This document shows positions 49,209 to 50,845 of a stretch of DNA of 64,000 nucleotides, in pieces; positions within the stretch are counted from its first letter, which is position 1; the number at the start of each line of letters is the position of its first letter. The DNA comes from an uncultured Clostridia bacterium (lineage in GTDB: Bacteria; Bacillota; Clostridia; Oscillospirales; Oscillospiraceae): the NCBI GenBank assembly GCA_945877365.1, contig CAMCRV010000001.1, positions 1 to 64,000 on the forward strand, given 5' to 3'. Under the pieces are notes generated by a model. That model did not search any database, was not told the origin of the DNA, and saw only the letters and a program-made list of their open reading frames with translations. The translations under genes and the position numbers were made by a program.

Positions 49209-49457
49209 CTACTTCTGAACAAATTCCTGCCAGCGAAAGCCAAAGCTGCCGTCTTCCCTTTGAATACAGGGGATGCCTATTGCGCCGTTTCTTTTGATTT
49301 CGTCAAACGCAGGATCCTCCCGCAGCTTGAGAAAGTCCTTCAAATTTTGCAGACTGTCTGCAAAATCCAGATAGACATATTCAACCCCCAGCTTATCAAA
49401 AGCCTTGCGGCACTGGACGCAGTCCTTGCAGAGCATACTTCCGTAAACCTTTAACAT
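49209..49457 (-). CDS. glutaredoxin-like protein
   Basis: MLKVYGSMLCKDCVQCRKAFDKLGVEYVYLDFADSLQNLKDFLKLRE...GIPCIQREDG. Confidence 0.82.
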   Translation of the reverse strand: MLKVYGSMLCKDCVQCRKAFDKLGVEYVYLDFADSLQNLKDFLKLREDPAFDEIKRNGAIGIPCIQREDGSFGFRWQEFVQK

Positions 49458-49468
49458 AATCGTTTCTC

Positions 49469-50341
49469 CTACAGTATTGCAATATAACGCAAAATATTTT
49501 TCAGAATCCGGGTTTGGGCATCCATGGCGGCTTTCAGATAGTCCTGAGATGCATCTTCCTGCTGCCATGCACAGCAGATCGAAGCCCCCACGCAAACCGC
49601 ACAGCCATGGCCGAATTTGTCAAAGGCAAAAGAACAGTTTTTCGCATTGCCGCCGGGATAGTCCAACCCCTCCACCAGCAGAAACTGGGATGGATACTTC
49701 CCCCGAAGGGTCTGCAGGCTCTGGGGTGCAGTAGCCGCCGCGACACAGCCCACCAGAGAATATCCGCTCTTTCCAATCAGGCTTACCCCCTGACGGTTGG
49801 CATAGTCCGCCGCGGCAAGATGGACAAGCCGTGTTCCCGCAATAAGATCCTGAAGCTCAGGTGCCGATTTATTGGCAGTTCTTGCCAGAACAAAAACACT
49901 CTTTTTACTGTTCTTGCACCATGGAAGGAACGGCCGGATGGCATCACTTCCCAGATAGCCAGAGATGACCAGACCATCACAGGGAAATTCGGACGGATTG
50001 CTCAGGAGCGTGTTGGCTGCGATCTGAGCCACAGTGGGAGAGAAAATCTCCGGAGCATCCAGAAGCACATAAAGCCCGGCTTCTTTGGCGGCCTGCAGGG
50101 TCTGCTGAAGCTGAGAAATTCCTTCCGTACCCATCAAAGCAAAGGCAGCAAAGCCGATGCGCACACCGGGAAGAATTCCCTTCATGCAGCCGATCAGCTC
50201 CCGGGAAAACAGGCCATAGGCCTCTGCGTCAGAACGCCCTTCCCGAAGCTGGGGCGGAATCTGATCCGGCGAAAGGGTAAGATCCAAAATAATGGGATTC
50301 TTTCGTTTTCGGATTTTATCCTGTAACACATCAACAGACAT
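49469..50341 (-). CDS. OMP decarboxylase (PyrF type 2)-like protein, probable non-canonical or inactive homologue
   Basis: Long collinear resemblance to PyrF type 2 (VRIGFAAFALMGTEGISQLQQTLQAAKEAGLYVLLDAPEIF; DGLVISGYLGSDAIRPFL; VFVLARTANKSAPELQDL) but DAKRxD is replaced by DAPEIF. Confidence 0.7.
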   Translation of the reverse strand: MSVDVLQDKIRKRKNPIILDLTLSPDQIPPQLREGRSDAEAYGLFSRELIGCMKGILPGVRIGFAAFALMGTEGISQLQQTLQAAKEAGLYVLLDAPEIFSPTVAQIAANTLLSNPSEFPCDGLVISGYLGSDAIRPFLPWCKNSKKSVFVLARTANKSAPELQDLIAGTRLVHLAAADYANRQGVSLIGKSGYSLVGCVAAATAPQSLQTLRGKYPSQFLLVEGLDYPGGNAKNCSFAFDKFGHGCAVCVGASICCAWQQEDASQDYLKAAMDAQTRILKNILRYIAIL

Positions 50342-50455
50342 TTCGCTCCCTCCTTTTTGTCATTATAGCATATTTTTTTACCAATGCAACGACAAAAAGC
50401 TGACAGATTTAATTTTTTCGTGCTGGGCATACTAGCATTGGAAGGAGGGAATCCA

Positions 50456-50641
50456 ATGAATGCAAAAGGATGGGCACTCACGGCGGGAATTGGTGCCGCT
50501 GCCGGTGCCGTGGCAGTTCTGATGATGCCTCGGACAAACCCTACCAGAAGACTTGCAGCGAAGGCCGCAAACAAAATGGAGGATGTGGCCTGGAAGGTTT
50601 CTGACACCATTTCCAGCAAAATGGATCAGATGGATTTCTAA
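50456..50641 (+). CDS. small membrane-associated protein
   Basis: MNAKGWALTAGIGAAAGAVAVLMMPRTNPTRRLAAKAANKMEDVAWKVSDTISSKMDQMDF; GGAGGG RBS. Confidence 0.6.
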   Translation: MNAKGWALTAGIGAAAGAVAVLMMPRTNPTRRLAAKAANKMEDVAWKVSDTISSKMDQMDF

Positions 50642-50802: not shown

Positions 50803-50813
50803 CTGAGCAAAAG

Positions 50814-50834
50814 CCGGGAGGCAAAGCCTCCCGG
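50814..50834 (-). terminator. Rho-independent terminator of clpE-like gene
   Basis: CCGGGAGGC-AAA-GCCTCCCGG followed on the minus strand by CTTTTG. Confidence 0.75.
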
Positions 50835-50845
50835 TCGATTTGTTC

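Follow-up and report, generated by a model that had tools for sequence, protein, structure and literature searches.

A degenerate type-2 PyrF-like protein maintained in Faecousia and related Oscillospiraceae

Why is a protein that has the full-length fold of a type-2 OMP decarboxylase (OMPDC, PyrF), with most of the catalytic residues replaced, kept in an intact frame? The question is raised by a gene in the window, the 64,000-nucleotide stretch of DNA from an uncultured Clostridia bacterium that was analysed here. A sequence-only reading had placed a PyrF-like open reading frame at 49469-50341 and regarded it as a maintained pseudoenzyme or a repurposed fold. The open reading frame is indeed present, on the minus strand (the earlier reading gave no strand). 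It encodes 290 amino acids, starts with ATG and is undamaged. The locus shows the following elements:

50456..50641, plus strand: small YtxH-like divergent gene; no Pfam match, named by resemblance
50349..50356, minus strand: good ribosome-binding site AAAGGAGG of the PyrF-like gene, 7 bases 5' of the ATG (sequence reading)
49472-50341, minus strand: PyrF-like coding sequence; stop codon at 49469-49471
49469..50341, minus strand: degenerate type-2 PyrF-like protein, 290 aa, stop included (profile search, alignment, AlphaFold model, Foldseek)
50015..50059, minus strand: segment DAPEIFSPTVAQIAA, residues 95-109, replacing the canonical DxKRxDIG catalytic segment (alignment)
49835..49873, minus strand: loop residues 157-169 (N...E.QDL..G), with peak conservation within the family; model confidence low at 165-170
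49640..49672, minus strand: replaced phosphate-binding region, residues 224-234, E-G-L-D-Y-P-G-G-N-A-K versus PGYGAQGG...; holds residues newly conserved in Faecousia
49209..49457, minus strand: glutaredoxin-like protein, 82 aa, with CxxC, 11 bases downstream of the PyrF-like gene

The YtxH-like gene is a conserved upstream marker common to the window locus and the pyrC-pyrF2 loci of intact relatives. At the other end, the ribosome site of the glutaredoxin-like gene overlaps the PyrF-like stop, and the glutaredoxin-like gene is likely a co-transcribed neighbour of the PyrF-like gene in part of the genus. A strong terminator-like hairpin of 10 pairs (window 50813-50835) lies between the ytxH-like and ClpC-like genes. 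An antisense open reading frame of 270 aa (49514-50326, plus strand) was taken as spurious; most genes here have long antisense open reading frames.

That the protein is collinear with type-2 PyrF, as first proposed, is borne out over its full length. The TIGR02127 (type-2 PyrF) profile matches residues 5-265 with 109 bits, which does not reach the cut-off of 110.6, and Pfam OMPdecase gives 24 bits, below its cut-off of 27. Three other degenerate members score 65-94 bits with TIGR02127. When an E-value chosen as a stand-in for the TIGR02127 bit cut-off was used on one alignment of the family, 7 of its 49 rows passed and the window protein failed. Identity to the intact type-2 PyrF proteins of the order is 30-39%; among solved structures, the nearest in sequence is the type-2 OMPDC 3r89. 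The AlphaFold model, based on a 49-row alignment, is a confident TIM barrel (pLDDT 91.8, pTM 0.90). A Foldseek search, which might have pointed to a different fold, returned the same type-2 PyrF fold with 3r89 as the top match (TM 0.87). The weakest stretch of the model, residues 165-170, falls inside the most conserved loop of the family.

The catalytic site is a different matter. Characterised OMPDCs have the signature D, K, D, K, D, H, P, R, and the catalytic lysine is present in all five characterised enzymes behind it (PMC3584854). Seven of the eight published positions are alignable with intact type-2 proteins as the reference, and the window protein keeps one of these seven, Asp95. Unlike type-2 PyrF, it carries Thr22 for the beta-1 aspartate, Arg61 for the beta-2 catalytic lysine, Glu224 for the beta-7 proline and Ala253 for the beta-8 arginine. 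At the position of DxKxxD, within the segment that had been quoted in the sequence-only reading, it reads DAPEIF: the first aspartate is retained as Asp95, the catalytic lysine is Pro97 and the second aspartate is Phe100. The phosphate-binding GAQGG (PGYGAQGG) is replaced by the segment EGLDYPGGNAK. The reported loss of the catalytic lysine and the second aspartate, as well as the degenerate appearance of the C-terminal phosphate-binding region, are thus both real. The catalytic lysine and the phosphate site are missing in all Faecousia-type orthologues, the lysine in all 54 non-redundant proteins from Faecousia (Oscillospiraceae). Because the same losses recur across all of these orthologues, the changed site is neither chance nor a sequencing error, and a frame-shift as the cause was likewise ruled out.

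A check for another intact pyrF had been suggested, and one was found. The same assembly encodes an intact type-1 PyrF with the motif DLKLHD on another contig, in the order pyrK-pyrD-pyrF-pyrE, and a PyrB above the cut-off. Type-1 PyrF scored more than 200 bits in most of the 61 genus genomes searched.

The PyrF-like gene occurs in 27 of 36 other sampled members of the genus, many of them incomplete drafts, with 40-55% identity to the window protein. One carrier (G010) has it broken across two frames; in the others it is a single open frame. A further 80 loci came from named genomes. Three of the nine members in which it is absent are at least 90% complete (G015, G021 and G035). Of these, G021, at 99% completeness, carries the type-1 operon. 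G035, at 98%, lacks both forms of pyrF and also PyrB, PyrD and PyrE over the cut-off. Not every genus member carries the gene, and it is dispensable somewhere. Nevertheless, the proposal that it is maintained and not decaying agrees with the open frames here and in nearly all orthologues and with the dN/dS ratios, which indicate purifying selection. Among close pairs these were 0.04-0.18 for the degenerate proteins (47 measurable pairs, which overlap and are not independent), 0.01-0.10 for proteins with a lysine-to-methionine change (see below) and 0.03-0.28 for intact ones. Compared with the type-1 PyrF of these genomes, the protein changes far more quickly (42-64% versus 85-96% identity), and its median identity is 0.50 versus 0.68 for the adjoining MurB. 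We consider it highly probable that the protein is not an OMP decarboxylase and that it is maintained by selection. With its retained fold, the loss of essential catalytic residues throughout the family (54 non-redundant orthologues), purifying selection and an active enzyme encoded elsewhere, it resembles pseudoenzymes in general, which act as regulators or scaffolds, and the original suggestion of a pseudoenzyme or repurposed fold has held up.

Several positions at the mouth of the barrel are near-invariant among the 54 non-redundant Faecousia proteins: lysines have become Arg61 (0.98) and Arg154 (1.00), a proline Asp224 (0.98), a glycine Asp227 (0.93) and the catalytic lysine Pro97 (0.89), and Asn232 (0.96) and Lys234 (0.93) are new. 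The window protein deviates from the genus at position 224, where it has glutamate, not aspartate. These newly conserved residues look as a changed binding site would, which argues against a mere relic. It might be thought that a different active site was built at the barrel mouth, giving the Faecousia proteins a new reaction on some small substrate, phosphorylated or not. Changes of reaction are common among TIM barrels; Arg61, Arg154, Asp224, Asp227, Asn232 and Lys234 are not conserved in intact PyrF, and in the model these polar residues lie at or near the C-terminal ends of the barrel strands. We nevertheless consider such a new enzyme unlikely. The window protein itself departs from the pattern at position 224, and the locus gives no operon context for a reaction. 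Moreover, 3-keto-gulonate-phosphate decarboxylase and hexulose-phosphate synthase, the sister enzymes in the OMPDC suprafamily, use DxKxxD, a motif that is gone in the window protein.

A survey of 201 genomes of the family found a pyrF2-type gene in 104 and a type-1 PyrF over the cut-off in 93. Eighty pyrF2 loci from these genomes were read and fell into three forms. Fifty-seven are intact (DxKRxD), and type-1 PyrF occurs in none of these 57 genomes. In eight, a change of the catalytic lysine to methionine (e.g. DSMRGD) is the sole difference from the intact site, again without type-1 PyrF in any of the eight genomes. The remaining 15 are more degenerate, and 13 of these 15 genomes have type-1 PyrF. 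The intact and type-1 genomes tested have PyrB, PyrE and class-1 PyrD, with the exception of G075 (intact pyrF2, 80% complete), in which PyrB was not over the cut-off. In the Lys-to-Met genomes and in two genomes of another group, g115, PyrB and PyrE are absent over the cut-off and there is no class-1 PyrD of the usual score. These absences rest on draft genomes; since six of the eight Lys-to-Met genomes are 95-100% complete, it is unlikely that several pathway genes are all missing by chance. Most simply, the Lys-to-Met genomes would belong to pyrimidine auxotrophs that kept only pyrF2. A search of the order with a degenerate nucleotide pattern encoding DxMRGD gave matches at chance level and was discarded.

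The Lys-to-Met forms also bear on the idea that the protein continues to decarboxylate OMP through an atypical catalytic site. They keep all other site residues, and four of them (L113, L121, L123 and L124) reach 208-233 bits on NCBI's TIGR02127 PyrF equivalog, whose cut-off is 110.6. Even so, continued decarboxylation is hardly credible, and this reading was rejected. The catalytic lysine found in all five characterised OMPDCs (PMC3584854) is gone, and in the genome of the window type-1 PyrF is available for the step. Lacking PyrB, PyrD and PyrE, the Lys-to-Met genomes should make no OMP. A practical consequence is an annotation trap: these forms exceed the equivalog cut-off by about 100 bits, and genomes without OMP decarboxylase or the pathway would be scored as pyrF-positive.

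The frequent company of type-1 PyrF (13 of the 15 more degenerate loci and most Faecousia genomes) might suggest that the degenerate protein is a regulatory partner of that enzyme, in a heteromer or as a decoy. The association is strong in counts but comprises few independent events; for a sign test of the two traits, degeneration and type-1 presence, no more than 2-4 independent pairs were available, too few for significance. Because the dead protein is kept in genomes without any other PyrF (the eight Lys-to-Met genomes and g115), partnership with type-1 PyrF was not the original reason for its retention. It was rejected as the original role, and as an explanation of the family we regard it as very improbable.

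The loci themselves indicate where the gene came from. In intact loci the order is a divergent ytxH-like gene, pyrC, pyrF2, pyrK, pyrD and a histidine-phosphatase/GNAT gene; pyrC is present in 49 of 52, pyrK in 33 of 57 and pyrD in 44 of 57. Lys-to-Met loci read divergent ytxH-like gene, pyrF2 and, after a gap of a few bases, histidine-phosphatase/GNAT. Among Lys-to-Met or degenerate loci having enough flank none has pyrC, pyrK or pyrD. The divergent ytxH-like gene is found at six of eight Lys-to-Met loci and at 58 of 65 degenerate Faecousia loci. Downstream, Faecousia loci possess a glutaredoxin-like or ferredoxin-like gene, a LytR-type gene and murB. The shared layout, with the divergent ytxH-like gene kept and pyrC, pyrK and pyrD gone, suggests that the degenerate gene is, most simply, a direct descendant of the pyrF2 of the operon, still at its old place. 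The window gene would therefore share its ancestral locus with type-2 PyrF, although the locus, unlike those of intact type-2 PyrF, is without pathway genes. The sequence-only reading had stated that the gene keeps its neighbours; this is true within the genus but not in comparison with intact relatives, whose operon partners are missing here. Among the loci compared, no single partner gene accompanies it in every lineage.

A histidine-phosphatase gene immediately follows pyrF2 in 8 of 10 Lys-to-Met loci and is present at 4 of 69 Faecousia loci. The histidine-phosphatase/acetyltransferase fusion occurs at Lys-to-Met and several degenerate loci and also after pyrD in many intact loci. Its start lies a few bases from the PyrF-like stop or overlaps it at L113, L127, L134, L141 and L146. 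Such tight spacing at the Lys-to-Met loci could mean that the gene is only a weakly selected relic, with no function of its own, that persists because it spaces the operon or couples translation to the next gene. Its rapid evolution compared with type-1 PyrF and its loss from some genomes would fit. We find this improbable, however, given that dN/dS lies within the range of intact PyrF, that 27 of the 36 sampled genus members keep the gene in spite of many incomplete drafts, that it outlasted the coupled phosphatase gene in most Faecousia, and that it has newly conserved residues.

In a quick maximum-likelihood tree of 98 proteins, one branch with a support of 66 has all intact proteins on one side. 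The degenerate and Lys-to-Met proteins fall into a clade with full support, to which the intact genes of g40 and g57 also belong, and six changes among the intact, Lys-to-Met and degenerate states are needed in all. The simplest reading, with moderate support, would be that the lysine was lost once and that degeneration came later, several times. In a poorly resolved tree of type-1 PyrF, rows from genomes with a dead pyrF2 are scattered among type-1-only genera, and these genomes may have gained type-1 PyrF once or several times. The pathway may have been lost and then regained, or a second operon may have come first, with later loss of the pathway in some members.

Taken together, we think it probable, if well short of certain, that the protein descends vertically from a type-2 OMP decarboxylase, no longer decarboxylates and is retained for another role. 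Its gene occupies the place of the pyrF2 in the pyrC-pyrF2-pyrK-pyrD operon of intact relatives. In one clade of Oscillospiraceae the catalytic lysine changed to methionine, most simply once. Where the pyrimidine pathway is lacking in this clade, pyrC, pyrK and pyrD are missing beside pyrF2, whose nucleotide site is otherwise unaltered. The nucleotide site has been replaced as well in Faecousia and in several other genera, almost all of which have a separate type-1 PyrF.

The retained protein, probably a dimer as PyrF is, would work without decarboxylation, and we see about an even chance that it is a ligand-binding regulator or scaffold, which would be its most likely mode of action. The ligand of the Lys-to-Met forms is probably still a UMP- or OMP-like nucleotide. 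The comparable laboratory mutant, K72A of the M. thermautotrophicus OMPDC (PDB 2zz2), lacks the equivalent lysine and, according to its entry title, has 6-cyano-UMP bound; a site without that lysine can still hold a UMP analogue. Since the Lys-to-Met forms keep the other site residues, the ancestral dead form presumably bound nucleotide without turnover. K72A is a single designed change and not a natural family, and the window protein has lost much more. In Faecousia the pocket appears to have been rebuilt around Arg61, Asp95, Arg154, Asn157, Asp224, Asp227, Asn232 and Lys234, so that ligand or partner probably changed; we think that this form has another binding target or a protein partner.

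More speculatively, and with odds that we would put clearly against it, the proteins may constitute a new family in gut Oscillospiraceae derived from OMP decarboxylase: first a nucleotide-binding sensor in pyrimidine auxotrophs, which had lost the catalytic lysine and kept the site, then re-tooled, perhaps repeatedly, for a different ligand where OMP is made via another enzyme, as an OMP-binding dead protein would compete with the living one. A literature search of open-licence papers found none describing a pseudoenzyme derived from OMP decarboxylase or the PyrF-like family reported here. Unlike pseudoenzymes in general, this family still includes an intermediate stage that keeps its binding residues and occurs in genomes lacking the pathway. 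How a pseudoenzyme arises can be followed in coexisting steps, from the operon enzyme through the lone Lys-to-Met form without a pathway to the rebuilt form beside a second pyrF. The question can be tested, as there is a published type strain of Faecousia (PMC12056005) and a degenerate form is available in an isolate. The latter is Pseudoflavonifractor sp. MSJ-30 (locus L104, NZ_JAHLPU010000071.1), whose degenerate protein has 288 aa.
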